Source: Fusicatenibacter saccharivorans (GTDB lineage: Bacteria > Bacillota > Clostridia > Lachnospirales > Lachnospiraceae). Taken from it: 35,580 nt of DNA. The notes beneath the pieces were generated by a model. It made no database searches and was not told where the DNA came from. It worked only from the letters and a program-made list of their open reading frames with translations. The stretch's first letter is position 1, and each line of letters opens with the position of its first letter. The position numbers and the translations under genes are program-made. The stretch spans positions 116,633 through 152,212 of the forward strand of contig NZ_JADNOP010000009.1 of assembly GCF_015557635.1 (NCBI RefSeq), in the 5' to 3' direction. Positions 5,458 through 22,869 of this stretch are shown in pieces.

Positions 5458-5480
5458 CTTCGGGACACTTTGTCTCGAAG
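5458..5480. repeat. ICE palindrome copy 1
   Basis: Ten-base arms around a CTT centre, with one G-T type mismatch (cttcGggaca / tgtcTcgaag). It lies between the recombinase start and the DUF6870 terminator. Confidence 0.8.
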
Positions 5481-5515
5481 AAGCAAAGCGAGCTGTAACC
5501 GAAGTTACAGCCCGC
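5478..5515 (-). terminator. Intrinsic terminator overlapping the DUF6870 stop codon
   Basis: A 12-bp stem with a TTCG tetraloop (one G-T pair), followed on the minus strand by TTTGCTTCTT. The stem includes the TAA of the DUF6870 gene. It should separate that gene from the recombinase. Confidence 0.75.
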
Positions 5516-5771
5516 TTCTTTGCCGCAGCAGGAAATCCGTCAGCTTATCTTGGAGAGATGGCCCGCTTTCAGCAAATTCAATTTTCACGCCAACACCACC
5601 GATGCAAAAGCAGTATGGATTTTTGACAGTCTGCAAAAATCGAGAGATGCGCTCCTTTCTGGAAAGCGCATTGTCAAAGGTCATACCGCTCACATCAGGC
5701 AGGGACTCGGCAGCCACCGCGCCAATGTCAACGCTTCTCATTTGTTCAAGTTCCTGTGTAGTTAATTTCAC
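5505..5771 (-). CDS. DUF6870-like small ICE protein
   Basis: 88 residues from a GTG start at 5771, chosen because GGAGG lies 6 nt upstream; a longer frame to 5957 has no ribosome site and runs through a hairpin and a palindrome copy. The sequence is compact and soluble, with L-T-T-Q-E-L-E-Q-M-R-S-V-D-I at the start and K-N-P-Y-C-F-C-I-G in the middle, a pattern I associate with DUF6870 proteins found beside conjugation genes. No catalytic residues are evident. Its place between the sigma-like regulator and the recombinase suggests a role in element maintenance or excision control, but that is inference. Confidence 0.65.
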   Translation of the reverse strand: MKLTTQELEQMRSVDIGAVAAESLPDVSGMTFDNALSRKERISRFLQTVKNPYCFCIGGVGVKIEFAESGPSLQDKLTDFLLRQRSGL

Positions 5772-5827
5772 GGTAAACCTCCTTCGCAGATTGATAGAAC
5801 GTCTCCCGCTGTTTGGTGGGGAAACGC

Positions 5828-5860
5828 AACAGGCCAGCACCACCGGGATGCTGGCCTGTT
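5828..5860. repeat. Perfect 12-bp inverted repeat upstream of DUF6870
   Basis: Arms AACAGGCCAGCA and TGCTGGCCTGTT with a 9-nt loop. There is no T run on either side, so it is not a standard terminator. It could be a leader structure or a protein site. Confidence 0.7.
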
Positions 5861-5871
5861 GCCTTACTCCA

Positions 5872-5894
5872 CCTTGGGACACTTTGTCTCGAGG
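5872..5894. repeat. ICE palindrome copy 2
   Basis: Divergent copy with CTT centre; both changes relative to symmetry are G-T type, so a plus-strand RNA hairpin would stay fully paired. Confidence 0.7.
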
Positions 5895-5917
5895 CTTATT
5901 ATAGCTTTTGAATATTA

Positions 5918-5982
5918 GAGAGCGCCGCACATATTTACTTGGCCTGTCCAAAGACAATCGTTATTTTCTGTGCGGCGCTCTC
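5918..5982. repeat. Perfect 14-bp inverted repeat with a 37-nt loop
   Basis: Arms GAGAGCGCCGCACA and TGTGCGGCGCTCTC match at all 14 positions. It sits in a region without a convincing gene, 11 nt from the stem-loop and palindrome cluster. It could be a structured RNA, a recombination-related site or the ends of a tiny insertion. Confidence 0.7.
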
Positions 5983-6725: not shown

Positions 6726-6750
6726 ACCTCGGGACACTTTGTCTCGAAGT
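6726..6750. repeat. ICE palindrome copy 3
   Basis: Eleven-base arms around CTT with two unmatched positions, lying 75 nt upstream of the sigma-like gene start. Confidence 0.7.
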
Positions 6751-7124: not shown

Positions 7125-7685
7125 TCATTTATTACCTAATTCCGTGGAACAGGCCATTAAAAAATAGTTATTTTGGTTAAATTGAAATTTTCCGACTTGT
7201 GTCATAGAAACCTTCCTTGTATGTGCGGCATAAGAGCGGGGATTGATCTGGTTAATAAAAGTAGCCATTATAGGATAACGCTCTTTCATGCTGGATAAAG
7301 ACGCATAAAATACTCGCTCAAATAATCCAGACCCGCGAACGGATTTATCAAGACAAACCGGCCCATACTGATAAGAATTTTTTGCAGTAAGCGTTTTTCC
7401 GTTAAAAGAAAAATTTGGTAGTTGTTCTATCATATAGACAAAGAACGGCCATTCCGCCCAAAACTCCCATGATGCGGCCATAGCAAAAGCAAGAATTTTC
7501 TCATTTTCCTTGGCAATCGTAACGCCATTCTCTTTTGTAATAAGTGTCACAAGCTGTTTTTCCGTCATGTTGGTGGTAACAAAGCCATCTGTTTTATCCG
7601 AAACATGACTGACATGATTTGCTTTCAGTAAATCAAGAACCCCCTGAACATCCTCTAAAGTTGCCTGTTGAATCAACATATTCAT
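7125..7685 (-). CDS. GNAT-type N-acetyltransferase, last gene of the cargo operon
   Basis: 186 residues. The N-terminal half begins like a GNAT fold (I-Q-Q-A-T-L-E-D-V-Q-G-V-L-D-L-L), and a C-terminal K-S-V-R-G-S-G-L-F-E-R-V-F region looks like the acetyl-CoA loop, although the usual R/Q-x-x-G-x-G/A is only loosely kept. Members of the fold move an acetyl group from acetyl-CoA to an amine. Its ATG overlaps the racemase stop by 4 bases (ATGA), which points to translational coupling and a shared pathway. It may acetylate a product of the decarboxylase, but the substrate cannot be read from the sequence. Confidence 0.7.
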   Translation of the reverse strand: MNMLIQQATLEDVQGVLDLLKANHVSHVSDKTDGFVTTNMTEKQLVTLITKENGVTIAKENEKILAFAMAASWEFWAEWPFFVYMIEQLPNFSFNGKTLTAKNSYQYGPVCLDKSVRGSGLFERVFYASLSSMKERYPIMATFINQINPRSYAAHTRKVSMTQVGKFQFNQNNYFLMACSTELGNK

Positions 7686-8377
7686 TCCTCCAAAATTGTT
7701 TTTATAAGTGCTTGTATATGAAGTTGCATGGTATCCAGACTCGGTATGGATAAATTTCTTCCCTCAAAAATAAGCGGTAATTCTGTACAACCTAAAATAA
7801 CAGCATCAATATTTTGTATCTTTGACATTTCCTCTACAATTTCTACAAAATGGCTGGCAGTTTCTTCTTTGACGATACCTAATTCTAATTCATTTAAAAT
7901 ATGGTCAGCAATATAGTCCCGCTCTGCCTGTTCAGGTATTTTTATTTCAATTCCCGCCTCCTCAAAAGGTATTTTAAAATAGTTACCTTCCATAGTTGCG
8001 GCTGTTCCAAGCAATCCTATCTTTTTCAGTCCTTGCCGTTTTGCTTCAGCACAGGCCGTTTCAACAATGCTTACAAGCGGAATAGGCGATTGTTTTTGCA
8101 ATTCGTTGAAAACTATGTGTCCAGTATTGCAAGCTAACGCTCCAACCTCCGCTCCTGCCGCCGCAAGATTTTGGATGCCTTTCAGTAAATATTTTGTCAG
8201 TCCTTCCCGGTCCTTTTGAGAACTCATACGGATTACTTCAAAAGAGCTAAGACTTTCAATTACTAATGGCGGGAAAAAAGGTTTGTTCAGTTTTTTCTGA
8301 ACACCATAGATAATTCCACGATAATAAGGAATCGTAGATTCCGGGCCAACGCCGCCGATCAATCCTAATTTTTTCAT
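7682..8377 (-). CDS. Aspartate/glutamate racemase family protein
   Basis: 231 residues, the normal length of the family. The N-terminus K-K-L-G-L-I-G-G-V-G-P-E-S-T is characteristic, and both catalytic cysteines are present: C83 in A-C-N-T-G-H and C197 in I-L-G-C-T-E-L-P-L. These enzymes abstract and return a proton at the alpha carbon of an acidic amino acid or related compound without PLP. The ATG overlaps the decarboxylase stop by 4 bases, and the GNAT start overlaps its own stop. G in place of the common A in the first motif hints at a non-standard substrate. The family call is firm; the substrate is unknown. Confidence 0.85.
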   Translation of the reverse strand: MKKLGLIGGVGPESTIPYYRGIIYGVQKKLNKPFFPPLVIESLSSFEVIRMSSQKDREGLTKYLLKGIQNLAAAGAEVGALACNTGHIVFNELQKQSPIPLVSIVETACAEAKRQGLKKIGLLGTAATMEGNYFKIPFEEAGIEIKIPEQAERDYIADHILNELELGIVKEETASHFVEIVEEMSKIQNIDAVILGCTELPLIFEGRNLSIPSLDTMQLHIQALIKTILEE

Positions 8378-9786: not shown

Positions 9787-9807
9787 ACCTAATTACGCCT
9801 CCTGCTG

Positions 9808-10620
9808 TTAATTGGAAGCCTCTTCTGGTAAATAGATGTCCGCCTGCGAGTAGAGAGCAGCTTTTCCAGCCAGTATGACCCGTTCTTTTTCCAAACGGCA
9901 ATAGAGAACGCCGCCGCGTGGGGATGCCTGATAAGCAACCAGATTATTCTTCAATAGCTTCTTTGCCCAGTACGGAATAATATGACAATGTCCAGAGCCG
10001 CAAACCGGATCCTCGGCAACATTCAGTTTAGGAGCAAAAGAACGGGAAATGCAATCATACGCTTCCCCATCTGTCCTTGCAGTTACCTGAAGAAGCAGTC
10101 CTTCTAACCCTTTTACTTTTTCCAAATCAGGTGCAAGACTTTTTATTATAGACGTGTTCTCAAATACGCAAAGTAAATCACGTCCTATATAGGCCTCTTT
10201 AGGGGCTATACCAATAGCATCTGTCATTTCTTTCGTTACAGGAATTTGTTTCAAATCGTAAGCAGGAAAATCCATTTCATATAGATTGCCGCGCCGGACA
10301 ACCGTCAATTTGCCGCTCATAGTAGAAAAAGCAACGCTTTCTTTTCCTTGCTCGTAATAATTCATAAGCACATAAGCACAAGCTAACGTTGCATGACCGC
10401 ATAAGTCTATCTCTCCGCCAGGAGTAAACCAGCGCAAGTCATAGTTTTCTCCGTTTTTAACAGTAAACGCCGTTTCAGAAAGATTGTTTTCTTTCGTAAT
10501 GCTCTGCATTAAATTATCAGGGAGCCATTGATCGAGAACACAGATGGCTGCTGGATTGCCCTTGAACACGGTATCTGTAAAAGCGTCCACGATATATTGT
10601 TTCAATACTGTACCACTCAT
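9808..10620 (-). CDS. PhzF-family isomerase/epimerase
   Basis: 270 residues, typical family length. The N-terminal motif D-A-F-T-D-T-V-F-K-G-N-P-A-A, the catalytic glutamate E49 in N-N-L-S-E-T-A-F, the L-C-G-H-A-T-L-A motif at 73-80 and a late G-S-G-H-C-H motif are all present. The fold resembles diaminopimelate epimerase. PhzF itself isomerises dihydro-hydroxyanthranilate in phenazine synthesis, but most relatives are uncharacterised, and no other phenazine gene is here. It is the first gene of the operon, with AGGAGG upstream of its ATG, and diverges from a LysR regulator. Confidence 0.88.
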   Translation of the reverse strand: MSGTVLKQYIVDAFTDTVFKGNPAAICVLDQWLPDNLMQSITKENNLSETAFTVKNGENYDLRWFTPGGEIDLCGHATLACAYVLMNYYEQGKESVAFSTMSGKLTVVRRGNLYEMDFPAYDLKQIPVTKEMTDAIGIAPKEAYIGRDLLCVFENTSIIKSLAPDLEKVKGLEGLLLQVTARTDGEAYDCISRSFAPKLNVAEDPVCGSGHCHIIPYWAKKLLKNNLVAYQASPRGGVLYCRLEKERVILAGKAALYSQADIYLPEEASN

Positions 10621-10656
10621 ATTTACTTAACCTCCTGCTTGTGTTTTTGACAGTTT

Positions 10657-10668
10657 TAGTATATACTA
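10657..10668. promoter_or_regulatory. Candidate LysR operator between phzF and lysR
   Basis: TAGTATATACTA is a perfect 12-bp palindrome in the 109-bp divergent intergenic region. LysR proteins usually bind such dyads (T-N11-A type) in exactly this place. It also contains a TATACT that could be a -10 box for the phzF operon. Confidence 0.5.
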
Positions 10669-12195: not shown

Positions 12196-12220
12196 ACTTC
12201 GGGACAAATTGTCCCAAAGT
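12196..12220. repeat. ICE palindrome copy 4
   Basis: Eleven-base arms around an AAT centre with one G-T-type mismatch (on the minus strand). It lies next to the candidate oriT and 35 nt past the relaxase stop. Confidence 0.8.
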
Positions 12221-12254: not shown

Positions 12255-13682
12255 CTATCGTTCCTGGGCCTTATTTTCACGCTCGTCTGTTATGCCGAGC
12301 AGATGATCAATGTTCGCTTTTATTGCCACGGCCTCCCGCATTTGCCGCTGGGCCTCCCGGTATTCTGCATAAAGCTCTTTTTTCTGTCCTGCCAGCTCAC
12401 GGCGGGATTTTTTTAGTGCTTCAATCTTAGGGAGCTTTGCGCCGTTCAGTATGGTGTTCATGGTATCTTTTGCCGCCCGGTAAGTGGCAAGCTCTGCTTC
12501 ATGCTGGGCCAGATACTTTTTGCTGTACCGCGCAGCCTTGTACCCATCGAATACCGGGCGGGTCTTGGCATAGTCCACCGTGGCAGCCATCAGCTCCGAG
12601 GTTTTGGAAAGAGCCTCCTCCGTTGTGCGGAGCTCGTCAGACAGCTTGTGAAAGTGATCCACCGCAGCCTCGGTGCTGGCCGTCAGCGCCGCATAGTCTG
12701 TCAGATGATGCTCCTGCAAATACTGGAGTGCAGCCGCCATCTGCTTTAAGTTGTAGACCTTGGCCCATCGTTCATAGGCCGGGCCCTTGCCCTGGGCCAT
12801 ACGCTCTTGAATGTCGATGATGAGATTAACTCGCCGTGGCGGAACCGTGGGCTCCTCTGGCAGCTCAGGGAGTGGACGTTTCCCGGCAATTACTGCCTTG
12901 ATGTCCTCCGGGTCAAATCCGGCTCCCAGTGTAGAAGCCCGGAGCCGAGTCGGTTTTTCCTGCCCGGGCGCAAGGAATGAGATGACACCGCCGCGTCCTT
13001 GTTTCACCGAAAAGCCGGACTCCTCCATGAGACGAAGAAAGTCGGCAAAGTCTGTGGGCTTTTTCTCCAAAGCCGCGAGAATAGCCAGCCGTACCCGCTG
13101 CTTGGCAGAGGGTGGCTTTTCTCCGATCCACTGTCCATAGTGAAGAAAACGGCCCTTGCTGTGCTGGCACGGATTTTGGATAACAGACAATTCATGTTCG
13201 ATGCACACGCGGTCAGAGAGCCGCCGCAGGGCAAAGGACGAACCAATGAAATTATGAAATTTCCGGGAGCGGTCAAAGGCCGTTGCATTGAAATAAATGT
13301 GATTGTGGATATGGGCCTTGTCGGTATGCGTACAGACAAAGAACTGATACTTTCCCTTTGTCCATCGCATTGCCGTTTCATAACCGATACGGTTTGCTTC
13401 TTCCGCCGTAACCTCCCCGGGCAGGAACGCCTGCCGGATTTGAAAGAACAGGGCCCCGCGAGATACGGCTCGGCCTGTCTCTGCAAGGTATTGACTTTTT
13501 ACCAGAAGAAACTCGGCGGGGGCCGTGCTCGGGTCGCAGAGATAGGAAGATACGGCTCCCAGCTTTTCCGGGTTCAGGCCATAGGTGAAACGATCCTCCA
13601 TCGTTTGAATTGCACTTTTTCCCGCCGCTGTTTTATAAGGGCGGATGTAGGTGGTCGTCGTAGAAATCCCTCCTTCCGGCAA
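12255..13682 (-). CDS. Conjugative relaxase (MobA/VirD2-like)
   Basis: Up to 475 residues. The relaxase domain fills the first ~250, with the metal-binding histidines in H-T-D-K-A-H-I-H-N-H-I-Y and several conserved tyrosines near the N-terminus (Y-G-L-N-P-E-K). The C-terminal half is charged and helical. The protein would nick oriT and lead the strand into the secretion channel. The start is odd: the frame opens with TTG at 13682, which has no ribosome site, while a perfect AAGGAGG sits 7 nt before an ACG codon at 13661, where an ATG would be expected. MobC lies upstream, but a terminator and a palindrome copy separate the two genes. Confidence 0.88.
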   Translation of the reverse strand: MPEGGISTTTTYIRPYKTAAGKSAIQTMEDRFTYGLNPEKLGAVSSYLCDPSTAPAEFLLVKSQYLAETGRAVSRGALFFQIRQAFLPGEVTAEEANRIGYETAMRWTKGKYQFFVCTHTDKAHIHNHIYFNATAFDRSRKFHNFIGSSFALRRLSDRVCIEHELSVIQNPCQHSKGRFLHYGQWIGEKPPSAKQRVRLAILAALEKKPTDFADFLRLMEESGFSVKQGRGGVISFLAPGQEKPTRLRASTLGAGFDPEDIKAVIAGKRPLPELPEEPTVPPRRVNLIIDIQERMAQGKGPAYERWAKVYNLKQMAAALQYLQEHHLTDYAALTASTEAAVDHFHKLSDELRTTEEALSKTSELMAATVDYAKTRPVFDGYKAARYSKKYLAQHEAELATYRAAKDTMNTILNGAKLPKIEALKKSRRELAGQKKELYAEYREAQRQMREAVAIKANIDHLLGITDERENKAQER

Positions 13683-13693
13683 ACAGTATTTTT

Positions 13694-13718
13694 ACTTTGG
13701 GACACTTTGTCCCGAAGT
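13694..13718. repeat. ICE palindrome copy 5
   Basis: Eleven-base arms around CTT with one G-T-type mismatch, directly upstream of the relaxase gene. Confidence 0.8.
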
Positions 13719-13721
13719 AGG

Positions 13722-13754
13722 AAAAACCGGGGAGCGGTATCAACCACTCCCCGG
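13722..13754 (-). terminator. Intrinsic terminator between mobC and the relaxase gene
   Basis: Arms CCGGGGAG and CTCCCCGG with extra inner pairs, followed by five T on the minus strand. It should lower read-through from mobC into the relaxase gene. Confidence 0.75.
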
Positions 13755-13759
13755 ACGGG

Positions 13760-14107
13760 TCAGAGCTCTACCAGCGCGGAGAGCTGTTTCAAGAGATCAG
13801 ACAGCGGCCCCCACAAAGCGGCATAGTCCCGCTGCAAGGCCGCGAGTTCTTCGGGATAAATTGCGCCGTAGGTGTTGGCCTGAATTGCCACTTGGTTCAG
13901 ATTGTTGGAGCATCGCCGCTGGAGCGAAACCAGCTCGCGAACCGGCGAAAGGTCAACATGAAGCACATACCCACTCAGGGCCATTTTCCGCATATAGGCT
14001 CCCATGTTACGGATGCCAGCCTCCGCCATACGTTCTTGAATCAGGGCCTGCTCCGCCTCCGACACCATCACATGAAGATGGATCGGACGGCGGCGTTTCT
14101 TTGTCAT
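13760..14107 (-). CDS. mobC: MobC relaxosome accessory protein
   Basis: 115 residues. The N-terminal R-R-R-P-I-H-L-H-V-M-V-S-E-A-E is a ribbon-helix-helix-like DNA-binding start, followed by the family pattern R-N-M-G-A-Y-M-R-K-M-A-L-S-G-Y. The second half holds the N-N-L-N-Q-V-A-x-x-A-N-T segment seen in MobC proteins. It would help the relaxase open oriT. Its ATG overlaps the stop of the small gene upstream (ATGA), so the two are translationally coupled. Confidence 0.88.
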   Translation of the reverse strand: MTKKRRRPIHLHVMVSEAEQALIQERMAEAGIRNMGAYMRKMALSGYVLHVDLSPVRELVSLQRRCSNNLNQVAIQANTYGAIYPEELAALQRDYAALWGPLSDLLKQLSALVEL

Positions 14108-14268
14108 CGCTCCTCACGCTCCCGGCTGCGGCAGGCGCGGGGCGGCTCCTTTACCTTATCCAGCGGCTTTCCCTGTTCGTCTGCCGGAACGGGGCGCGGC
14201 AAATGAAATTCACGGTGCAGGCGCAGCGCCTCCAGTACAGACAAATCCTGTTCACGTTTCTTTTCCAT
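14104..14268 (-). CDS. Small charged protein coupled to mobC
   Basis: 54 residues from an ATG with GGAGG 7 nt upstream. It is rich in Arg, Lys and Glu, with a proline-rich middle, and its TGA overlaps the mobC ATG. The tight coupling and good ribosome site are the evidence that it is real. No domain recognised. It may be a relaxosome or regulatory partner of MobC. Confidence 0.6.
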   Translation of the reverse strand: MEKKREQDLSVLEALRLHREFHLPRPVPADEQGKPLDKVKEPPRACRSREREER

Positions 14269-14280
14269 ATACGCACCTCC

Positions 14281-14865
14281 TTATCTATCGCCACGGTCAG
14301 GCTGCCTGCGCTGGGGAGCCGGAGCCTCCGAGCCGCGATCTGCCTCCGCCAACTTTGCCGCGTTTTTCATCTGCTCGACAATCGGACGGGGCCTGTCGGG
14401 ATTATCAGGCGCAGGACGCAGCTCATAGTCGGATGCCTGTTTTTCTGTCAGGGGGCGGGTATAGGTAAGATAACCCCAAGCCAGGAACGAGCCATTTTCC
14501 ACCGGGACGCGCTGATCGTAATTGAAAATTTCATCCGGCTTGTTATAGGGCGGCTTCGGGAATGTCCCGATGTCCACAGGCCGCTGGGTCGAATAATACT
14601 TGTAAAGACCGGGAGCCTCGGTCTGCCTGATCCCCACGTTATAAATACGCTGATAGTCCTGCACCCGGTCTGTGAAATCCTGTTCCATCGCGGTGCGGTC
14701 ATTTCCATAGTGACCCCATTCATACTGCCGCTGGCCGTCCTTGTCATCATAGCAGGCCCATGTGACATAGCGGGATGGCGCGGTGGGATGTTCGCCCAAT
14801 GCAAATCCTCGTCCATTTTCCAGCATGACCGCCTTCAAAATGGCATAGCCTTGATTTTTGTCCAT
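14281..14865 (-). CDS. Conserved ICE protein of unknown function
   Basis: 194 residues with GGGAGG upstream of the ATG. The start (M-D-K-N-Q-G-Y-A-I-L-K-A-V-M-L-E-N) and the aromatic-rich W-A-C-Y-D-D-K-D-G-Q-R-Q-Y-E-W-G-H-Y block make a folded ~150-residue domain, followed by an Arg/Pro/Ala-rich tail. No membrane segment, signal or catalytic motif is visible. It lies 13 nt after the 15838 gene and upstream of mobC, inside the transfer operon. I cannot assign a function; an accessory role in DNA processing is only suggested by position. Confidence 0.6.
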   Translation of the reverse strand: MDKNQGYAILKAVMLENGRGFALGEHPTAPSRYVTWACYDDKDGQRQYEWGHYGNDRTAMEQDFTDRVQDYQRIYNVGIRQTEAPGLYKYYSTQRPVDIGTFPKPPYNKPDEIFNYDQRVPVENGSFLAWGYLTYTRPLTEKQASDYELRPAPDNPDRPRPIVEQMKNAAKLAEADRGSEAPAPQRRQPDRGDR

Positions 14866-14878
14866 AGTACACCTCCCA

Positions 14879-15838
14879 TTATCGAGACATTTCTTTGTTT
14901 CCTCTTTTCACAAACGGCTGGAGCTGATAGGGGCTTGTACCGTCCTCGGGCCGCAGAAAGTCTATCCGAGCTGCAGCACGGATGGCGTTCTGGTTGAGCT
15001 GCCGCTGCCATGCCCCTTGGCTGGGAGCCCACTTAAAGCCGTTGTTTTTCAGTTCCTGTCGCTGATCGGCATCGGGCTTTTCCTCGAAAATAAGCTGCAA
15101 ACGGTTTTCAGCCTCGTTGATTTTTGCCTCGCCTCCGGGGAATGTCCAGCCAGCAAACTCGGAGCGGCTGCTCAGTTCCTCAATGCGCTGGCGCACACGG
15201 CGGATGTTGGCGTTGTTGTTGGAAAGCAGATAGGCGGGGTACGGCTTGCTTTTATCCAAGTGCCATGACTGCGTCATATCTGCTTTGAGCTTTTCTGCCT
15301 GCTCCGGCGTAAGCTCCGGGCAGCCGTCCAGCGTTTTGTGTTTCCGAAAATACGCATTGACCGCCTTCATGGTGGCCTGCTGGAACTCCAGCCCCTCCAG
15401 CTTTTTTGTCAGCTTTTCCACGGCCAGATCATCGTCTGCGCTGATCCCGCCCATACCAACAGAGCGGATTTTATCAAGCAGCTTTGAAATCTCCGCATAC
15501 TCTCCATAGTTGCGATCCCGGGCGGCGTTCTGCTTGTGCTTTTTTGCCACAGGGAAATTACCGCCCCCGGAGATCAGAATAGAGGGCACCCGGGCATCAA
15601 TCACATTGCGTTCATTCAGATTTTCCGCAAGTTTCCGGGCATAGCGATCCACCAGCGCGTCAATCTTATCATGGTACATGGGATCGACACGGGCTTTCTG
15701 GCGTTCCGCCGCTGCATACGCTTCATCGACCATTGCCCGGTAGCCCGCCGTAGCGGAGCCCGGCTGATAGTCGGAAAAGCTGTTCATATCTTTTGCCCGC
15801 TTTGCGGCTTCTTCATTGATCGGATAATATTTCGGCAT
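14879..15838 (-). CDS. ICE DNA-processing accessory protein, function unknown
   Basis: 319 residues from the ATG at 15838, which has AGGAGG at ideal spacing; the longer frame to 15919 would translate through a palindrome copy and is rejected. It is helical and charged, with a C-terminal motif N-G-F-K-W-A-P-S-Q-G-A-W-Q-R-Q-L of the kind found at the end of large polyvalent or DUF3560-like proteins of mobile elements. The middle carries a Gly-rich I-S-G-G-G-N-F patch. No enzyme motif is evident. Related proteins sit in conjugation and anti-restriction loci, but its role here is unproven. Confidence 0.65.
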   Translation of the reverse strand: MPKYYPINEEAAKRAKDMNSFSDYQPGSATAGYRAMVDEAYAAAERQKARVDPMYHDKIDALVDRYARKLAENLNERNVIDARVPSILISGGGNFPVAKKHKQNAARDRNYGEYAEISKLLDKIRSVGMGGISADDDLAVEKLTKKLEGLEFQQATMKAVNAYFRKHKTLDGCPELTPEQAEKLKADMTQSWHLDKSKPYPAYLLSNNNANIRRVRQRIEELSSRSEFAGWTFPGGEAKINEAENRLQLIFEEKPDADQRQELKNNGFKWAPSQGAWQRQLNQNAIRAAARIDFLRPEDGTSPYQLQPFVKRGNKEMSR

Positions 15839-15864
15839 AGTACCTCCTTCCACAAAAGCCGGAA

Positions 15865-15887
15865 CTTTGGGACAAATTGTCCCAAAG
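15865..15887. repeat. ICE palindrome copy 6 (perfect)
   Basis: CTTTGGGACA and TGTCCCAAAG around AAT, with all ten pairs matching. It lies 27 nt upstream of the 15838 gene start. Confidence 0.85.
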
Positions 15888-16017
15888 CCCCGGCAGCTAA
15901 AATGTTGACAGCATCTCACGGAAACAGGGCCGGACGTAGAAACATACGCCTCCCGCAGAAAAGGGCCTTAAAAAGCCTTGTCATAAGCGGGTTTAGGCTG
16001 GCCTAATTGTCAACACA

Positions 16018-16371
16018 TCAGCCCCGTTTTTTTCGCATATATTCCCGCTGCTGTCTGCGGTGTGCCGCCTTTGCACAGGCCGCCGAACAATAGGTTTGCC
16101 GTCCATCAGGAGCCACGGCTCTGCCGCATACCGGGCAAGCCTTGAAATCCGGCCTTGGCCCTTCTGTCAGCAGCGCAGCCTCCAGCGCCGGATCAAGGGG
16201 CAGAACTGCCTCGCGGAAGTAGCGGCAATAAGCCCCCGTCCAGCATTTTCCAAACATATAGCACTCGCAATCCAGCGGCAGGCAGCCGCAGTCCCGGTCA
16301 TAGTTGGCACACCATTTTGATACCAGCCTGCGGATTGCCGCTTTTTCTGTCCGGGTCAGTTCTCGGCCCAC
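16018..16371 (-). CDS. Cysteine-rich VLP protein
   Basis: 117 residues from a GTG at 16371, chosen because GGGAGGTGAT lies just upstream; the frame extending to 16494 overlaps another gene. L-T-R-T-E-K-A-A-I-R-R-L-V is followed by a cysteine cluster (C-A-N-Y-D-R-D-C-G-C-L-P-L-D-C-E-C) and a second C-P-V-C...Y-C-S-A-A-C zinc-knuckle-like group, ending in a basic tail. This is the pattern of the Cys-rich VLP family found in conjugative elements. It probably binds metal. Its role in transfer is unknown. Confidence 0.8.
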   Translation of the reverse strand: MGRELTRTEKAAIRRLVSKWCANYDRDCGCLPLDCECYMFGKCWTGAYCRYFREAVLPLDPALEAALLTEGPRPDFKACPVCGRAVAPDGRQTYCSAACAKAAHRRQQREYMRKKRG

Positions 16372-16375
16372 AGCA

Positions 16376-16519
16376 TCACCTCCCGTTGCCCGGTGGTTTG
16401 AGCTGCTCCCGGTAGCAGAACACGCAGCCAATCCCGCGCCAGTAAGGGCAGCCGTCACAACGGGAGCCCTTCGGCGGCAGGCTGGGCGGCACACCCTTAA
16501 AGTAGCTTTTTTCTTTCAT
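16376..16519 (-). CDS. Small cysteine-rich ICE protein
   Basis: 47 residues with GAGGG before the ATG. A C-D-G-C-P-Y-W...G-C-V-F-C motif in the centre gives four cysteines spaced like a zinc finger. The TGA is 4 nt before the GTG of the Cys-rich VLP gene, so the two small metal-binding-type proteins are probably co-translated. Function unknown. Confidence 0.65.
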   Translation of the reverse strand: MKEKSYFKGVPPSLPPKGSRCDGCPYWRGIGCVFCYREQLKPPGNGR

Positions 16520-16548
16520 AAATCCCTCATAGGGGTTGTTGGTAAATC

Positions 16549-16837
16549 TCATTCATTATCCTCGCTTTCGGTATCGTCCTCGTCCCAAGGCGGCCCATCG
16601 TCCTCGGAATCGTCATAATCAGCCAGTTCCTCACTGTAATCCTCTTCGGGTACAGTTTCCATCCTCCGAAAAGCCCTCGCCCGGGGTAATGGTAGGCGCT
16701 GGCTCCGAGGGCGGAGTTTCTTCCACAACAGGCGGTTCCTCATTTCCACTGTCCGAATAGGCGTAGGCTGGGATCGCAAAGCCGCATAAAAGAACGGCGG
16801 AGCAAAGCCCCGCCGCCAACATACGAAAGTGTTTCAT
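16549..16837 (-). pseudogene. DUF4366 surface protein with internal deletion and frameshift
   Basis: The start encodes a clear signal peptide (M-K-H-F-R-M-L-A-A-G-L-C-S-A-V-L-L-C-G-F) and a Pro/Glu/Thr-rich stretch ending P-G-E-G-F-S-E-D-G-N, as DUF4366 proteins begin. The frame then closes. In the next frame the acidic tail of the same family (D-Y-D-D-S-E-D-D-G-P-P-W-D-E-D-D) runs to a stop at 16549. The central domain and the membrane anchor are missing. A GAGGAT repeat on both sides of the join could have mediated the deletion. In intact ICEs this gene sits at the same place, next to DUF4315 and the NlpC/P60 gene. Confidence 0.7.
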
Positions 16838-16839
16838 AT

Positions 16840-17094
16840 TCAGTTTTCCTCCTTCTTTTCTTCTTCGGACTTCGGGACACTTTGTCCCAAAGTGCCACCG
16901 TCCTTCAGCTTTTCAAACAGCAGCGGGAGCTCCGTAAGGGAGATGCTCATACCGCGCACAATGTCCACGATCTCGCTGTTTTCTGCCTCCAGCTTTTTCT
17001 GCTCCAGCTCCTTGAGCCGGGCCTGCTGTTCACTGATTTTAGCCTTGACCTTATCAATTTCGGCCTGAATTTTCATGCTTTTGGTAGTTGCCAT
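16840..17094 (-). CDS. DUF4315 family protein
   Basis: 84 residues from the ATG at 17094, which has AGGAGG 7 nt upstream. A long coiled coil (residues about 5-45, K-I-Q-A-E-I-D-K-V-K-A-K-I-S-E-Q-Q) is followed by the V-R-G-M-S-I-S-L-T-E-L-P segment characteristic of DUF4315. The C-terminus T-L-G-Q-S-V-P-K-S-E is encoded by a palindrome copy, so the tail has been replaced or extended by the repeat. It lies between NlpC/P60 and DUF4366, its usual setting in these ICEs. Function unknown. Confidence 0.82.
   Translation of the reverse strand: MATTKSMKIQAEIDKVKAKISEQQARLKELEQKKLEAENSEIVDIVRGMSISLTELPLLFEKLKDGGTLGQSVPKSEEEKKEEN
16869..16893. repeat. ICE palindrome copy 7 (inside DUF4315)
   Basis: Eleven-base arms around CTT with one G-T-type mismatch. 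In the minus frame it encodes T-L-G-Q-S-V-P-K. Confidence 0.85.
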
Positions 17095-17108
17095 TTCAAA
17101 ACCTCCTA

Positions 17109-18827
17109 TCACGGTAAACGCCCATAGGCGTAAAAATGAGATTGCCAGTAGCTTGTATTCAAATTTGCGTAGCCGATGGGATCTCCGCAATGCAGCATTT
17201 TTCCGTCACCGACATAAATCCCGCAATGACTCACGCCCGGCGCGTCATAGGTGCCTTTGAAGAACACCAGATCACCGGGTTTTGGAGAACTGGTCGGCGT
17301 ACAGATGTTATAGAGCCCCTGGGCTCCCAGCCTGCCCACATTCCAGCCGGAGTGATTGATGACCCACGAAACGTACCCCGAGCAATCAAAGGAAGTGGCA
17401 GGAGAACTGCCGCCCCACACATAGGGATAGCCGATATATTTCTGTGCTTCGGCAAGCATCGCGGCAAAGGTTTCATCGTCCAGATATTCTCCGGGCACTT
17501 CGTAATCACCGGGTTTCCCGGTAATATACTTGTTCACATAGGGAGAATCCGGGAACAGATCAGGGCGGTTCCCCAGCGTTGCCATATAGATGGCATATCG
17601 GGAAAGCTGATCCTCGCCCATAACGTACACAGGTACATGGGACAAATCAAAGTTTTCCAACGTGACCGTACAGATGTAATAATCGTAAGGCACCTGATAG
17701 GTGTCCGTATGGGAGTTGCCGTCCTCGTCCGTCCATGTGTCGGTTTCCGTGCGATACCGGGTTTCCACCACCACATCCTCGGTCAAAATGTACTGGCGGT
17801 CAAAGAGCATTTGCAGCGTTCCCTGTACCTCGCCTATTGTCCATTGTCCCTCATGGAGCGCACACAAAAGAGAAAGAAGCACATAGGGATCATGTTCGAT
17901 TTCGTCCAGATCGAAGTGGTATTCGTCATAGTCATGGGTGCTTTCATAGGTGTCCAGATAATGCTGTAAATCATCTTCCAGCGCACAATAGGCGGCTTCG
18001 GCGGCCAGCATATCACGATCCTCGCAAGGATAGGTGCTGGCTCCTAATGCACCGGCCCCGGCGTTCCCCAGCATAAGCATGGTAGAGGAACAGGACTGCA
18101 TAGCAAACAGGAGTAACACACAGAGCACCGCAATCACAGCACCTGCGGGATGACTTTTGACAAATTCCACTGCCCGGGCAGTCAGGCGTTCTGTGGCTGT
18201 GGCAGTTTTCCCAGCCGCAGCCGCGCTCTGCTTTGCAGCCTCCTTTGCCTGCTTGCGGTATTGCCTGCGGAGCCGTTGCTTCTTCCAGTAGCGGGTAAGG
18301 GCATTTTTCGTCAGCTCCGGGTGCTCCTGTGCGGCGGTGTGAAAATGGTAGTCCGCCGTGTACTTGGTATAGCGGGCCTCGGCCTTGCGTACCACTTTTG
18401 CCGGATGTTCCCGGACTTTACGGCGCACAAAGCGAGAGCCATGCCGTAGCGCGGTTTCTCCCACAAGCTCAGAACGGTGTGCGCCTTCCGTGCCGACATT
18501 TTCCTGTTCCGCTTCAAAAATCTTGCCATGCACGAAGCTGTGAACGGAACCGCTGGCAACACGGCCTATGCGTTTTACCGGGCCGGGCTTTTTCGGAGGC
18601 TTTTGCTTTGCCAGCTTCTCCCGGGCCTGTTCCAGTTTTTCGCCTTGGGACTCCATGTGGAGCTTTGCCGCCGCAGCCTGTTCCTGCTGGCTCTTTTTGC
18701 GGAACTTGGACTTCGGGACACTTTGTCCCGAAGTGTCGGAAGCCTCCGGCCCGGGCTGTTCCCCGTCAGGGGCGTGGGCGGTCTGCGACCAAGCCTCCTC
18801 CTTGGTCTTATTCGTTTTTCGTTTCAT
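17109..18827 (-). CDS. NlpC/P60 cell-wall hydrolase of the conjugation apparatus
   Basis: 572 residues. An N-terminal basic, helical cytoplasmic region of ~220 residues, whose start contains a palindrome-encoded S-G-Q-S-V-P-K, is followed by one membrane helix (about 228-248). An extracellular domain and a C-terminal NlpC/P60 peptidase follow, with C482 in F-D-C-S-G-Y, H534 in S-H-C-G-I-Y-V-G and H546 as the third catalytic residue. It would cut peptidoglycan locally so the transfer channel can cross the wall. Its start overlaps the end of virB4 by 20 nt, and the GAGGAT inside virB4 serves as ribosome site. Confidence 0.9.
   Translation of the reverse strand: MKRKTNKTKEEAWSQTAHAPDGEQPGPEASDTSGQSVPKSKFRKKSQQEQAAAAKLHMESQGEKLEQAREKLAKQKPPKKPGPVKRIGRVASGSVHSFVHGKIFEAEQENVGTEGAHRSELVGETALRHGSRFVRRKVREHPAKVVRKAEARYTKYTADYHFHTAAQEHPELTKNALTRYWKKQRLRRQYRKQAKEAAKQSAAAAGKTATATERLTARAVEFVKSHPAGAVIAVLCVLLLFAMQSCSSTMLMLGNAGAGALGASTYPCEDRDMLAAEAAYCALEDDLQHYLDTYESTHDYDEYHFDLDEIEHDPYVLLSLLCALHEGQWTIGEVQGTLQMLFDRQYILTEDVVVETRYRTETDTWTDEDGNSHTDTYQVPYDYYICTVTLENFDLSHVPVYVMGEDQLSRYAIYMATLGNRPDLFPDSPYVNKYITGKPGDYEVPGEYLDDETFAAMLAEAQKYIGYPYVWGGSSPATSFDCSGYVSWVINHSGWNVGRLGAQGLYNICTPTSSPKPGDLVFFKGTYDAPGVSHCGIYVGDGKMLHCGDPIGYANLNTSYWQSHFYAYGRLP
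18710..18734. repeat. ICE palindrome copy 8 (perfect, inside the hydrolase gene)
   Basis: ACTTCGGGACA and TGTCCCGAAGT around CTT with all 11 pairs matching. It encodes S-G-Q-S-V-P-K-S near the N-terminus of the NlpC/P60 protein. Confidence 0.9.
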
Positions 18828-21168
18828 TCTTCATATCCTCCGGGCGGGTAGTCAGCAGGTCATAGATTTCTCCGCGAGGGAACCGATCCACAAACGGGAT
18901 GGTTACATTTCCATAGAACAACAGCCCCTCGCCGGAATTGCTGTGTGTGATATAGGAAAGCTGGTGCTCGGAAATGCCGAGCTGTTTTGCCAGAATGGTA
19001 CGGTCACTCTGCGCCTGCGAAAGCAGGATCATAAAATCCGTGTTGTCCAGAATGTTCTCGATTTCCCGGCTGTCCAAAAGGTCTTTGACGTTCTGCGTCA
19101 AAGCAGACGGCACACATCCTTTTTTACGCAGCATCTTCCAGACTGCCACAAAGTAGCTGGCCGTCAGCGGATCGCGGAGCAGAATGTGAAACTCGTCAAA
19201 ATAGCACCAAGTCGCTGCGCCCTCGTGGAAGTTCTGATCCACCGCCTGCGAAACAAACTCGTTTGTGATGTGCATTGCAATCTTTCTAAGGTTTTCGCCC
19301 ATGTTTTTCAGAACGATGCACACCACACGGCTGTCCGTCTTGACGTTGGTAGGATGGTTAAAGAGATTGAGGGAGCCTGTGCAATAAAGCTCTAAGGCAG
19401 TTGCCACGCGCCGGGCCTCGGGCTCCGGCTGGCGTAAAAGCTCCTCATACAAATCCTGCAACAGCGGTGTTTTTGCGGTTTCCAATCCAAGCGCCTGCTC
19501 CCGGTACACCAAACGCACACAGCGGTCAATGACCGTCTTTTCAATGGGCTGCAAGCCTTCCTTGCCGCCGACCACCAGCTCGCACAGGGACAAAAGAAAA
19601 TCCGCCTTCATGGAAAGTGGGCTTTCTCCGGCAGCCATATTGAGCTCCACATCCATCGGATTGAGGTGGTGCGGGCTGTCCGGGGCAATCTCGATCACCT
19701 GGCCGCCCAGCCTTCGCACCAGCGGAGCGTATTCGCCCATCGGGTCAACCACGATGATCCGATCCTGCGGGATGGTGAGAAACACATTCAAGAGCTCGCG
19801 CTTTGCGGCAAAGCTCTTGCCGGAGCCCGTAGAGCCCAAATACATCCCGTTTGCCGATTTCAGCTTTTTGCGGTCAGCCATGATGACATTGTGAGAAAGT
19901 GCGTTCATGCCATAGTAGAGGGCCTGCCCAGCCATGCGGAGCTCCCTTGTCATAAAAGGAATAAAGATGGCTGTGGAGCTGGTGGTCATACCGCGCTGGA
20001 TTTCTACCTCGTTGTAACCAAGGGCCAACGAGGAAACAAAGCCCTGTTCCTGTTGCCAGTCCAGACGGCGCAGAGCGCAGTTGTATTTCTGCGCGATACC
20101 GCCCACGGTAAACACATCGTTTTCCAGCCGCTGGCGGTTAGGAGCAAGGTTTACCACCGTAAAGGTCAGCAAAAACATTCGCTCATTGCGGGATTGCAAA
20201 TCAGCCAGAAGCTCTGCTGCGTCCTTGCTGAATGTAATCAGGTCAGGGGGAAGAATATCCGGGTCATAGCCGGAGCGCACAGCCTTTCTCTGTTCCTCCA
20301 CTTTCATTTTTCCGATGTCCGAGATTTTCCCCTTGATGGTCTTGATTGCCTTGAGCTGATCCACGGTCTGAATGTGCATGGTCACGGTCATTTCCGCATC
20401 CAGCTCCAAGATTTCCGCCAGCAACTTATCCGAAAGCTCCGATGCCATAATCTGCAAGTAGGACACCGCGCCCCAATACTGGCCGATACGGAATGTGCGG
20501 GACTGGCGGAAGTCGAGACTGTCCGGGGCAATAAAGTCTTTTGTGCCGAGCCCGGTCTGCGGGATGTCTTTCCACGAAAAGCGGAACGCCTCGCGGCTCC
20601 CCGGATGCATCTGGCTATGAAGCAGCGCAAGGCGGGCCCGCCCGTCCATAGGCTCCGAGGGAACGCCCAACCGCTTAAAGTTTCCCATGACATCAGCCTC
20701 CACACGCTCCAGACGGGGCCGTGCCTCCGCAATCCCCTCGGCGGGTATGCCAAAGGTGATGTATTTTGAGCGTTCAATGCCGTTATTGCTTTTGGCAATC
20801 TGATTTTTCAGCATCCCGGTAAACTCACCCCGGACGCTGTTATAGTTGTCATCCGCTTTCGGGATATTGACCTGATAGCGGCTGCGGGAATGTGAACGAC
20901 GGTTGATAAAGGAAAGCTGGAACGGCAGCGAACTGTCAAAGTAGTTGAGAAATGAGCTCCATCCGCTGAATATGGCAGTCTGATCCTCGGTGGATGCCAC
21001 GGAGTAATTGATGTCCTCATATTCCACGGTTTTTGTATAGAGCCCGCCCGGGAGCTTGCACACACCGTCCGGGTGCATGGACAGATACGGGATTGTCTGC
21101 TGAGCAGACAGGGTCGCCCGGCCTTTACCCTTGGCGGCGGCTCCGTTTTTCTTCTTTGTGTTTTTCAA
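18808..21168 (-). CDS. virB4: VirB4-type conjugation ATPase
   Basis: 786 residues. The Walker A motif G-S-T-G-S-G-K-S lies at about 445-452 and Walker B in W-C-Y-F-D-E-F-H at about 654-661, with the VirB4 N-terminal domain before them and a complete C-terminal lobe. It is the cytoplasmic motor that powers assembly of and substrate passage through the type IV channel. The gene overlaps prgI by 44 nt at its start and the hydrolase gene by 20 nt at its end. The frame is intact. Confidence 0.94.
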   Translation of the reverse strand: MKNTKKKNGAAAKGKGRATLSAQQTIPYLSMHPDGVCKLPGGLYTKTVEYEDINYSVASTEDQTAIFSGWSSFLNYFDSSLPFQLSFINRRSHSRSRYQVNIPKADDNYNSVRGEFTGMLKNQIAKSNNGIERSKYITFGIPAEGIAEARPRLERVEADVMGNFKRLGVPSEPMDGRARLALLHSQMHPGSREAFRFSWKDIPQTGLGTKDFIAPDSLDFRQSRTFRIGQYWGAVSYLQIMASELSDKLLAEILELDAEMTVTMHIQTVDQLKAIKTIKGKISDIGKMKVEEQRKAVRSGYDPDILPPDLITFSKDAAELLADLQSRNERMFLLTFTVVNLAPNRQRLENDVFTVGGIAQKYNCALRRLDWQQEQGFVSSLALGYNEVEIQRGMTTSSTAIFIPFMTRELRMAGQALYYGMNALSHNVIMADRKKLKSANGMYLGSTGSGKSFAAKRELLNVFLTIPQDRIIVVDPMGEYAPLVRRLGGQVIEIAPDSPHHLNPMDVELNMAAGESPLSMKADFLLSLCELVVGGKEGLQPIEKTVIDRCVRLVYREQALGLETAKTPLLQDLYEELLRQPEPEARRVATALELYCTGSLNLFNHPTNVKTDSRVVCIVLKNMGENLRKIAMHITNEFVSQAVDQNFHEGAATWCYFDEFHILLRDPLTASYFVAVWKMLRKKGCVPSALTQNVKDLLDSREIENILDNTDFMILLSQAQSDRTILAKQLGISEHQLSYITHSNSGEGLLFYGNVTIPFVDRFPRGEIYDLLTTRPEDMKNETKNE

Positions 21169-21514
21169 TCACATCCTCCTTTCCAGCACCCGGCCCGGCA
21201 AAGGGCGCATAAATGTTTTCGGTTCGGTAGGCCCTGATCCCCGGCCTTAGAAACTTGGCCCGGATGATGTTTCGCACAACCTTTTCAAAGGGCAAGCCGT
21301 CCTTTTCATACATCGCCAGCAGGAACGCCGGGAGCATAATTCCCAGCATGAGAAACATCGCCCCGGTATTGCCGAGGGTGCCACGGGTCAGCAGATAGGC
21401 CGGAATCTCCACTGCGCCCGCGCTGCCGAAGCAGACAAGCTGGCGTTTGGTGAGGTTGAAAGCCATCTTTGTTTTGATTTTGGATAAATCGTTTGGTACG
21501 TTTACATAGGGCAT
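21125..21514 (-). CDS. prgI: PrgI family membrane protein
   Basis: 129 residues. The start M-P-Y-V-N-V-P-N-D-L-S-K-I-K is typical of PrgI. Two membrane helices follow (about 30-48 and 52-70), then a basic cytoplasmic tail. PrgI is a VirB3-like inner-channel component and always sits beside VirB4 in Gram-positive systems. The start lies 4 nt after the stop of the methyltransferase gene; the end overlaps virB4. Confidence 0.9.
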   Translation of the reverse strand: MPYVNVPNDLSKIKTKMAFNLTKRQLVCFGSAGAVEIPAYLLTRGTLGNTGAMFLMLGIMLPAFLLAMYEKDGLPFEKVVRNIIRAKFLRPGIRAYRTENIYAPFAGPGAGKEDVIEKHKEEKRSRRQG

Positions 21515-21517
21515 AGA

Positions 21518-22090
21518 TCACACTCCTTTCTGCACTTCGGGACAATGTGTCCCAAAGTCCGGGATGGTTGGTGTTACTTCATTTCCCCATACAGCCCAGC
21601 CGGGCGGGGTCTGCCTGGCAAAGAGCTCCACGCGGGGCAGATCGCCCATCAGGGAAATGATTTTGGCGCGGGCCTCGTCCGGCTTTTTGCTATGGGCTTC
21701 AATCGGGGAAATGATGAATTGATGAATGTTGGCAGCCTGCCGCTTTGGATGTCCCTTGGTTGCCAGCAGGCAGATTTCTGCATTGCCCCTTGTCCAGAAG
21801 CCAAGGCCGTAAAACCAGCTATCCGCCTTCTTGTTCTTTTTCAGCCAGACGAAAGCAACGCTTTTGTAGGTGAAGCCCCAAGCCTCGATCAGCCGGAGCG
21901 CCTCCGGGAGCTGCGGGAAAGTGGCCCATAAAAAGAGTGCGCTGTCCGGGGCTGCAAGATCAGCCACAGGCAACGCACATAACTCCTCAATGCTCATAGT
22001 GGGATAATGGTTTTCCGCCGCGCCCTGTACTTTCTTAGCCGAGTAGCGCCAAGGGGGATCGGCGTAAATGATAGAATACTGCTGGATAAT
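21518..22090 (-). CDS. MT-A70 family adenine methyltransferase with a non-canonical start
   Basis: 190 residues if read from ATT at 22090. The catalytic D-P-P-W motif falls at residues 11-14, upstream of the first ATG (21997), so translation must begin before that ATG. The only place with a ribosome site (AAAGGAG) is the stop of the upstream gene, where the sequence is TAATT; a TAATG overlap is the expected ancestral form. The rest of the domain is complete (P-D-S-A-L-F-L-W-A-T and W-T-R-G-N-A-E). The C-terminus comes from a palindrome copy (F-G-T-H-C-P-E-V). It would methylate adenine, possibly protecting incoming element DNA from restriction. Confidence 0.8.
   Translation of the reverse strand: MIQQYSIIYADPPWRYSAKKVQGAAENHYPTMSIEELCALPVADLAAPDSALFLWATFPQLPEALRLIEAWGFTYKSVAFVWLKKNKKADSWFYGLGFWTRGNAEICLLATKGHPKRQAANIHQFIISPIEAHSKKPDEARAKIISLMGDLPRVELFARQTPPGWAVWGNEVTPTIPDFGTHCPEVQKGV
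21534..21558. repeat. ICE palindrome copy 9 (end of the MT-A70 gene)
   Basis: Eleven-base arms around ATG with one G-T-type mismatch. It encodes F-G-T-H-C-P-E-V, a different reading frame from copies 7, 8 and 10. Confidence 0.85.
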
Positions 22091-22869
22091 TACACTCCTT
22101 TCTCGCCAGAACTTTTTACTGCCTGCGCCGCACGAATACGCTCACTGGCTGCGGCATAAAAGGCCGGGGCCGTTTCAAAGCATACAAAGCGACGTTCTGT
22201 GTTGATAGCTGCAATCGCGGTTGTGCCGGAGCCCGCGCAAATGTCCGCGACCAATTCGCCGGGGCGGGTATAGGTGCGGATCAGATACTCACAAAGCTCC
22301 ACGGGCTTCTGTGTGGGATGGATGCCGCCGGACACCGTAGGCACAAAAAGCACATTTCCGGGATAGCGGCGGCCATCATTGGACTCTGAGCCCTGCCGTT
22401 CAAATTTCCCATAGTTAGAGCTTGTACCGCTTCGGGAATGAACACGGGTATATGGCTTGCCGTAAGTAAACTGTGGATTGTAGACCGGGGACTTTTGGTA
22501 AAACACCAAGATGTTCTCGGACTTCTTCAGTGGAGCCCGGTTTGCATTGAGAAAGCCCGTTCCGCGCTCTTTGTACCAAATCCACTCATAGCGGAGCATG
22601 GCGAGGTTGGATGCGCCCAGCACCTTGTCAAAGGGGCACTGTGCGAAAAACAGCACTGCGCCATTCGGCTTGACCGCCCATTTCACCGCCTCCCACAGCT
22701 CCGGGAGCGGCAGGGGCACATCCCAATAATTCCGGGTTGTGCCGTAAGGCGGATCAGCCAACAGCATATCCACGCTATGTTTGGGCAGGGAGCGCAGGCC
22801 CTCAATGCCATCCATGAGAAACAAGCCCTCCTTCGGGACACTTTGTCCCAAAGTGCGGCTATCGGTCAT
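22090..22869 (-). CDS. DNA (N4/N6) methyltransferase, beta-type motif order
   Basis: 259 residues from the ATG at 22869, which has AAAGGAGG 6 nt upstream. The catalytic D-P-P-Y is at 39-42, and the AdoMet-binding D-I-C-A-G-S-G-T-T is at about 209-217, i.e. catalytic motif first, as in beta-group amino methyltransferases. No target-recognition specificity can be read and no restriction gene is next to it, so it looks like an orphan or anti-restriction enzyme. Because the SpoVG-like gene upstream is frameshifted, that gene's frame now runs straight into this one. A palindrome copy encodes residues 5-13 (R-T-L-G-Q-S-V-P-K). Confidence 0.9.
   Translation of the reverse strand: MTDSRTLGQSVPKEGLFLMDGIEGLRSLPKHSVDMLLADPPYGTTRNYWDVPLPLPELWEAVKWAVKPNGAVLFFAQCPFDKVLGASNLAMLRYEWIWYKERGTGFLNANRAPLKKSENILVFYQKSPVYNPQFTYGKPYTRVHSRSGTSSNYGKFERQGSESNDGRRYPGNVLFVPTVSGGIHPTQKPVELCEYLIRTYTRPGELVADICAGSGTTAIAAINTERRFVCFETAPAFYAAASERIRAAQAVKSSGEKGV
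22831..22853. repeat. ICE palindrome copy 10 (start of the methyltransferase gene)
   Basis: Ten to eleven-base arms around CTT with one G-T-type mismatch, in frame as T-L-G-Q-S-V-P-K. Confidence 0.85.

Follow-up and report, generated by a model that had tools for sequence, protein, structure and literature searches.

A 35,580-nucleotide stretch of Fusicatenibacter saccharivorans DNA (assembly GCF_015557635.1, contig NZ_JADNOP010000009.1, positions 116,633 to 152,212; hereafter the window) carries part of an integrative and conjugative element (ICE) through which ten copies of one palindrome are scattered. We find that these palindromes are very probably read by the ICE's own ParB protein, whose gene lies on another contig of the same genome. 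A binding site for an element-encoded protein was one of three explanations offered by the original prediction, which was made from the letters of the window; it is the one supported here, and covariation between ParB residues and site bases names ParB as the likely protein. This gives a likely reader to the sites arrayed along the ICEs of a widespread group of conjugative gut elements.

Palindromes in the element and its relatives

All ten predicted palindromes were present, with coordinates correct to within 1 base and centres as described (CTT in seven copies, AAT in two and ATG in one). Nine matched the 25-bp plan with at most three mismatches, and 100 shuffles gave no match; the tenth (site 2 in Table 1) matched the plan in its core only. 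The core, GGGACA-N3-TGTCCC at up to two mismatches, was matched by all ten, a number reached in 0 of 100 shuffles (mean 1.06, largest 4). Genome-wide (3.6 Mb), exact cores numbered seven, all within the window. The 19-mer at up to one mismatch gave 14 sites (ten in the window, three on contig C9 and one on contig C17) and its reversed control none; the 15-mer at up to two mismatches was uninformative at this scale, with 127 matches versus 103 for the reversed control. An equal density on the host chromosome was not what we found: exact cores and 19-mer sites are concentrated in the element, and the claim of element specificity stands. Copies were confined to the interval between 5.4 and 23 kb, as had been claimed, but the right-hand limit is partly accidental, because a maff2-like gene is cut at ~24.57 kb and the ICE's other half, with three more copies, is on C9. 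The cargo genes at 6.8–12.1 kb and the integrative and mobilizable element (IME) of the window contained no copy.

Related loci were gathered from GTDB by VirB4 similarity, without use of the motif, and the best 80 of 115 were taken. Such palindromes occurred in 75 of the 80, in three main sequence classes. Class A sites (half-site TYGGGACA) were found at up to one mismatch in 64 loci, with 537 sites and none for the reversed pattern; one of these loci, L087, is counted through a single class A match and is otherwise class B. Eleven of the other 16 loci hold a palindrome of the same plan belonging to class B, TCTGGACA-N3-TGTCCAGA, or class C, TCGGGCCA-N3-TGGCCCGA. The five palindrome-free loci are three contigs of 3.9–4.7 kb (L071–L073) and two loci, L102 and L103, whose VirB4 is 59–60% identical. 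A further class, D, was seen in one element, L203 (CCGGGCCA). Copies within one element agree in class with single exceptions, one B-type copy in L030 and one A-type copy in L087. Five ICE regions contained 10–13 exact-pattern sites each. In the element of Clostridium sp. MD294 (L070; G429 C1 2755743–2757022), parB is split over several frames and the sites are still there.

The gene junctions that carry sites are the same across these elements. Besides the junctions listed in Table 1, a site followed the stop codon of ardA in 29/29 loci, of parB in 25/26 and of virD4 in 22/31, and lay at the MT-A70 end in 59/65; site density predicts 3–6% at such junctions. The site in the NlpC gene falls within its first 300 nt, where 12% would be expected, and only 25/61 loci had a site up to 400 nt ahead of trbL (16% expected). 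Site spacing averages 1.3–3.0 kb. In 36 of the 44 rows listed, which represent related elements, five of them entered twice, the sites are distributed more evenly than by chance (P<0.05).

ParB residues and site bases

The ICE protein matched TIGR00180 at 62 bits (cut-off 58.45) and carries the ParB N-terminal (Srx-like) domain. Consistently, its matches among solved structures are Spo0J and ParB, and Foldseek matches of its predicted model show the ParB fold, KorB structures among them; the mean predicted local distance difference test score (pLDDT) of this model is 66, residues 1–185 being mostly below 50. The model places helices of the helix-turn-helix (HTH) domain at 322–336 and 341–350. 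G253, R255 and R256 are invariant across 23 aligned ParBs, and we take them to be the G-x-R-R nucleotide-binding motif (GERR-type). AT-hook-like [RK]GR[PK] motifs are present in the N-terminal extension of 31 of the 35 long ParBs, the form to which this protein belongs.

We queried 24 protein families of the element, 20 of them testable (the other four include the N6_N4 methylase), for residues that the two class B lineages have in common and that are rare in class A. The screen returned 26 such columns in 11 families, so that alone it is no proof of the reader. Two columns were constant throughout the class A and class C rows but changed in B: R328L in the ParB HTH domain and the conservative V554I in VirB4. 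Arg occupies ParB position 328 in 22/22 class A, 4/4 class C and 1/1 class D (L203) proteins, and Leu does so in 8/8 class B proteins, long ParBs without a clear class (L195 and L209 at contig ends, and L115) being uncounted. Arg thus goes with G at pair 6 of the site and Leu with T. Class B forms two clades both on a ParB tree built without columns 318–352 (approximately unbiased (AU) test, p 5e-5) and on a VirB4 tree of all B, C and site-less rows plus 27 of the class A rows (AU p 9.5e-5). As read from these trees, therefore, the change at residue 328 was twice accompanied by a rewriting of about ten sites; this makes no more than two contrasts, and a sign test cannot reach significance for the 328 class B trait alone. 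The two independent switches, each of about ten sites and one residue, document in nature how the specificity of a regulator and that of its targets shift together.

Viral contigs were consistent with this association. Among 29 loci, 20 were examined, and eight held long ParBs, all eight with the class foretold by residues 328 and 330 (four A, three B and one C, one of the eight classed on a single site); the other 12 had no multi-copy A, B or C set. One of these 12, L261, with a distant partial ParB, nevertheless has three copies of a related palindrome, CTTTTGGAC-TTTTT-GTCCAGAAG, at 12329, 13124 and 13990. Other surveys added few long ParBs: 398 genomes of the phylum gave three, one of them from the present element, L214 having a class A site and R328 and L213 no site by the narrow pattern used. 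Two orders, searched in 35 and 21 genomes, added no new one, plasmid records gave one (95% identical), and no phage record matched over 80% of the query. Scanning viral contigs for the perfect 23-mer turned up one contig.

Short ParBs from other Tn1549-like ICEs and from plasmid-like and viral contigs provided a larger sample. Of 81 distinct short parB frames, 67 contained an internal palindrome with a gap of three at a loose threshold, against 91/405 codon-shuffled controls; perfect 11-bp arms occurred in 32/81 frames and 0/405 controls. The usual embedded form is ACTT-N5-CA-N3-TG-N5-AAGT, and it ends 1–4 codons ahead of the residue 328 codon in 50 of the 53 rows used. In 11 regions of 10.9–57.5 kb, chosen for a site with at most one mismatch, the site occurred once in each. 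A first de novo search for palindromes, which demanded at least four copies, had seen none recur in the regions of other Tn1549-like ICEs and so had missed this single copy inside parB.

Each such gene provides a ParB together with its site, and dozens of these natural pairs are available for reading and testing a DNA recognition code. We aligned 54 short and 35 long ParBs and counted 60 distinct rows (53 short, 7 long), after dropping 27 of the 81 short frames, in which mismatches exceeded two or the outer bases departed from A[AC][TC]; columns that the palindrome itself encodes covary with it and were left out of the code. Residue/base information was 1.50 bits for residue 328 and base pair (bp) 6, 1.36 for 342/bp4, 0.98 for 330/bp5, 0.81 for 369/bp1 and 0.44 for 346/bp2. 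Neighbouring contacts are not cleanly separated, since 342/bp3 (1.11 bits) and 341/bp4 (1.02 bits) are informative too. Over the 60 pairs, residue 328 paired with bp6 as R with G 18 times and T twice, K with T 12, E with C 9, L with T 6, Q with A 3, and T with T 3 and G 1. Residue 342 paired with bp4 as N with C 19 and A 1, R with G 15, K with G 10, D with C 6, S with C 3, and P and T with T 4. For residue 330 and bp5 the counts were R with G 12, A with C 7 and G 1, N with G 3, D with T 8, C 4, G 1 and A 1, and S with T 7, C 2 and G 1.

Raw counts are inflated by kinship of the elements, and the trustworthy tests are those on independent pairs from a tree of 89 rows built without the palindrome-encoded columns. 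These supported 328R with bp6 G (10 pairs, p 0.004), 328E with bp6 C (7 pairs, p 0.016), 342R/K with bp4 G (10 pairs, p 0.002), 342N/D/S with bp4 C (p 0.002) and 330R with bp5 G (p 0.016); three mismatched residue/base controls gave no association. In the aligned sequences, then, residues 328, 330 and 342 track bases 6, 5 and 4 across the 60 ParB/site pairs, and pairings of 346 with bp2 and 369 with bp1 are suggested. Arg with guanine, Gln with adenine and Glu with cytosine are textbook residue/base pairs. By hand alignment, ParB 330 and 341 correspond to Caulobacter ParB Q162 and R173, which contact parS according to passages of PMC7383237. The few HTH residues that set the site in the ParB-parS/Noc-NBS (Noc-binding site) switch, where Arg also reads guanine, offer a likeness; other residues and bases are involved there, and that work, in the same passages, used crystal structures and assays, against natural covariation here.

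A wider picture, which we think somewhat more likely than not, is a radiation of ParBs on Firmicutes mobile elements in which the centromere would sit inside the gene beside the HTH codons, so that site and reader form an exchangeable cassette of ~100 bp with a code of nearly one residue per base. One lineage, without ParA and with a lengthened ParB, would carry the site at most gene junctions as an element-wide clamp-loading array, nearly all copies being rewritten in concert at each change of ParB specificity. A search of open-access full texts (subscription papers lay outside it) found neither scattered ParB sites in these ICEs nor such a residue/base code described.

Alternative readings and a proposed role

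Three other accounts of the palindromes fit the data far less well. A different element protein (XRE, Cys_rich_VLP, a methylase or MobC) is very improbable as the reader. Cys_rich_VLP is found in all six motif ICE regions and is absent from seven regions without multi-copy sites, and Q22L in the DNA-binding MobC tracks class B too, though L also occurs in class C rows and in one class A row. However, only 2 of 30 other Cys_rich_VLP loci (L162–L191) have the palindrome, on which ground this candidate was rejected; XRE, relaxase and Cys_rich_VLP have no class-specific columns, and the first two were rejected for that; and the residue/base code belongs to ParB. That the sites act as RNA hairpins for processing, stability or attenuation is more improbable still. 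Their palindromic form and their position between genes of long operons would suit this account, and the original prediction had noted covariation that keeps the stem at its fifth pair (pair 7 from the centre). This was partly right: among 313 distinct class A sites in transcription orientation (L025–L104), pair 7 is T..A in 54 and C..G in 48, but the mixed T..G and C..A pairs are equally common at 105 each, with one other. An RNA stem would favour G-U over A-C, so that these counts, and those at pair 5 (A..C 60 versus G..T 2), speak against RNA; an Rfam scan gave zero matches at the palindromes, and the ParB residue/base code counts against hairpins as well. A small REP-like (repetitive extragenic palindromic) mobile repeat spreading within the element is the least credible account, with almost no probability in our estimate. 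It would explain numerous near-identical copies in one element; the conservation of their places across different elements already refutes it, copies switch class together, and cargo and IME have none. Phage L5-like stoperators, considered because the sites lie between genes, are asymmetric; the present sites are palindromic, and the comparison was dropped.

What the ParB-read sites do was approached through the gene neighbourhood. A ParA-like motif stood upstream of 34 of the 43 short ParBs having at least 1 kb of upstream sequence (38 with less were left out). Of the 35 long ParBs, 32 lacked a ParA motif nearby, two had too little sequence and one gave a match belonging to another ICE, so that 0 of 33 testable long ParBs have a ParA of their own; the five ICE regions contained no ParA inside. 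By its neighbourhood, then, the long ParB is an orphan with 10–14 sites. The single match is a fragment of an ICE that hosts the inserted Faecalibacterium I4-1-79 element (L133, L134; G438 C1), which lies between this ParA fragment and a short parB.

Taken as a whole, the palindromes are probably best explained as parS/OB-like DNA sites of the ICE-encoded ParB, forming an array whose likeliest use would be KorB-like control. ParB, encoded at the far end of the ICE backbone, would bind as a dimer reading one 11-bp half per subunit. From family knowledge it is likely that it then closes as a cytidine triphosphate (CTP)-dependent clamp that slides along adjacent DNA; since most gene junctions carry a loading site, and these are on average 1.3–3 kb apart, the backbone could be covered by clamps. 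Whether this would keep transfer genes quiet while the element is integrated, as in KorB-like use, we judge an even call. As a working hypothesis, KorB of RK2 is the closest model for the long ParB: passages of PMC11790492 describe ParB loading at OB, CTP clamp sliding and help in repressing promoters more than 1 kb away with KorA, and the title of a paper cited there counts 12 OB operators on RK2. Both are ParB-family proteins with operators at several places of a mobile element; according to the same passages KorB differs in its site sequence, its KorA partner and in that repression was shown, whereas the ICE is known from sequence alone. On this reading, ICE ParB is a candidate for global control of these gut elements.

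Two other uses of ParB-bound sites deserve weight. One is a dispersed centromere, as in IncC plasmids, by which the ICE would be stabilised when excised or replicating; this is possible but doubtful. The short relatives resemble ParABS systems, and IncC plasmid R55 has 14 scattered parS-like repeats, to which two mimics on the IME SGI1 are added in passages of PMC10954446, as the ICE has 10–14 sites and IME-like elements single copies; however, this lineage is without ParA, present in IncC, and the first 60 residues of the 35 long ParBs contained no match to a ParA-binding-like pattern. In the same passages IncC ParB binding was shown by electrophoretic mobility shift with three probes, whereas here it is deduced. 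The sopC centromere of the F plasmid has a half-site, TGGGACC, resembling that of class A, but its twelve even-centred 16-bp sites form one tandem cluster and SopA is present (passages of PMC8357417). Activation or antisilencing of transfer genes, as by VirB and BisD, is rather unlikely: activating ParB-like regulators are known, one of them in ICEclc (passages of PMC7423338 and PMC12704722), but the present sites spread across the element and are not at one or a few promoters. BisD is likewise an ICE-encoded ParB-domain protein used in regulation; it comes from a proteobacterial ICE, has BisC as partner, and no element-wide site array appears in the passages of PMC7423338.

Several observations weigh against ParB as reader or against KorB-like control. 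Two R328 ParBs have T at bp6, residue 330 is ambiguous for D, S and V, and tree-controlled p values exceeded 0.05 for 328Q/bp6 A (3 pairs), 369R/bp1 C (p 0.06) and 346R/bp2 C (p 0.13). A profile alignment puts 328 itself at Caulobacter 162, which leaves an uncertainty of about two residues in the mapping. Long ParBs were given the class of their element's consensus site, in some cases from 2–4 sites in the stretch fetched, and a few elements (L030, L087) hold one copy of another class. Class A sites are also less symmetric than expected, with mixed pairs at pair 7 in 210/313 (about half expected), and the GAGACA form keeps to one orientation (60 to 2) and lies mostly at the element's two ends. 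Sites are not enriched at promoter-like sequences (mean score 6.42 for 72 GAGACA-type sites, control 6.81). No KorA-like partner was identified, no search having been aimed at KorA; XRE and sigma-like genes are candidates at most.

Single sites on IME-like elements add a further aspect. The exact class A 19-mer occurs exactly once in 15 of 392 genomes of the order. Where the surroundings were inspected (in a few of the 15 genomes, in G034 with two copies, in C. cadaveris and in Christensenella P2438), the site occupies the leader of an IME-like operon, and an XRE gene is often close by; in C. cadaveris (L144 8107–9831) one perfect class A palindrome occupies an operon leader near acetyltransferase-like and XRE genes. 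ParB search matches included no relative in the 18–20 kb around L111, L144 and L145. The resident ICE of C. cadaveris is class B and that of Christensenella class C, so a class A IME partner would have to be another ICE. These sites suggest that such IME-like elements hitch-hike on an ICE's ParB, as SGI1 does with IncC plasmids (passages of PMC10954446).

The two halves of the element and its surroundings

The ICE is split between contigs. The window covers the relaxase to a maff2-like remnant (residues 48–74), and C9 (L006) runs from parB to virD4 residue 318–325, with three further palindromes at 9958, 11297 and 12323 beside parB, ardA, pcfB and the 5' part of virD4. The genome yielded no remaining half of virD4 at similar identity; on C9 the gene is cut beside a different recombinase-bearing stretch.

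Table 1 Palindromes and ICE features of the window and contig C9
Feature	Position	Type or strand	Context	Evidence
Site 1	5457..5481	GAGACA-type, minus	Between serine recombinase gene (3704-5386) and end of small open reading frame (ORF) 5505-5957	25-bp plan match
Site 2	5871..5895	GAGACA-type, minus	4 nt past TATAAT hexamer, same strand	Core match, sequence inspected
Site 3	6726..6750	GAGACA-type, minus	Upstream of sigma-factor-like ORF (start ~6651; label by eye)	25-bp plan match
Site 4	12196..12220		~35 bp past relaxase stop	25-bp plan match; junction kept in 53/53 loci
Site 5	13694..13718		Between mobC/nikA-like gene and relaxase start	25-bp plan match; junction kept in 44/54 loci
Site 6	15864..15888		~25 bp ahead of ATG of ORF ending at 14879	25-bp plan match
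Site 7	16869..16893		Within DUF4315 gene 3' end, ahead of next gene	25-bp plan match; junction kept in 47/51 loci
Site 8	18710..18734		Within NlpC/P60 gene 5' end	25-bp plan match; kept in 53/66 loci
Site 9	21534..21558		MT-A70 gene 3' end, directly ahead of prgI	25-bp plan match; kept before prgI in 64/71 loci
Site 10	22830..22854		N6_N4 methylase gene 5' end	25-bp plan match
ICE transfer genes	12255..24566	-	Relaxase to maff2-like remnant, holding sites 5-10
parB	C9, L006 11319-12767	minus	Outside window, same genome

Gene names based on Pfam are relaxase, MobC/NikA, DarA_C, Cys_rich_VLP, DUF4315, NlpC/P60, TraG-like ATPase (VirB4), PrgI, MT-A70, N6_N4 methylase, TrbL_2 and recombinase; ardA, pcfB, virD4, maff2, DUF4406, DUF4366 and sigma-like are putative names given by inspection. 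An IME-like stretch with its own recombinase (24636–26333) adjoins the cut in the maff2-like gene; the IME-like set (24566–32250) comprises a serine recombinase, a primase-helicase, a MobA/MobL relaxase, DUF3847 and DUF3990. The palindrome-free cargo at 7125–11602 contains racemase, pyridoxal phosphate (PLP)-dependent decarboxylase, PhzF-like and LysR genes. Rfam matched a group II intron at the contig end (35506–35579, minus strand) and a cyclic di-GMP (c-di-GMP-I) riboswitch at 3236–3311 (minus strand), directly upstream of a solute-binding-like ORF (1292–3229).

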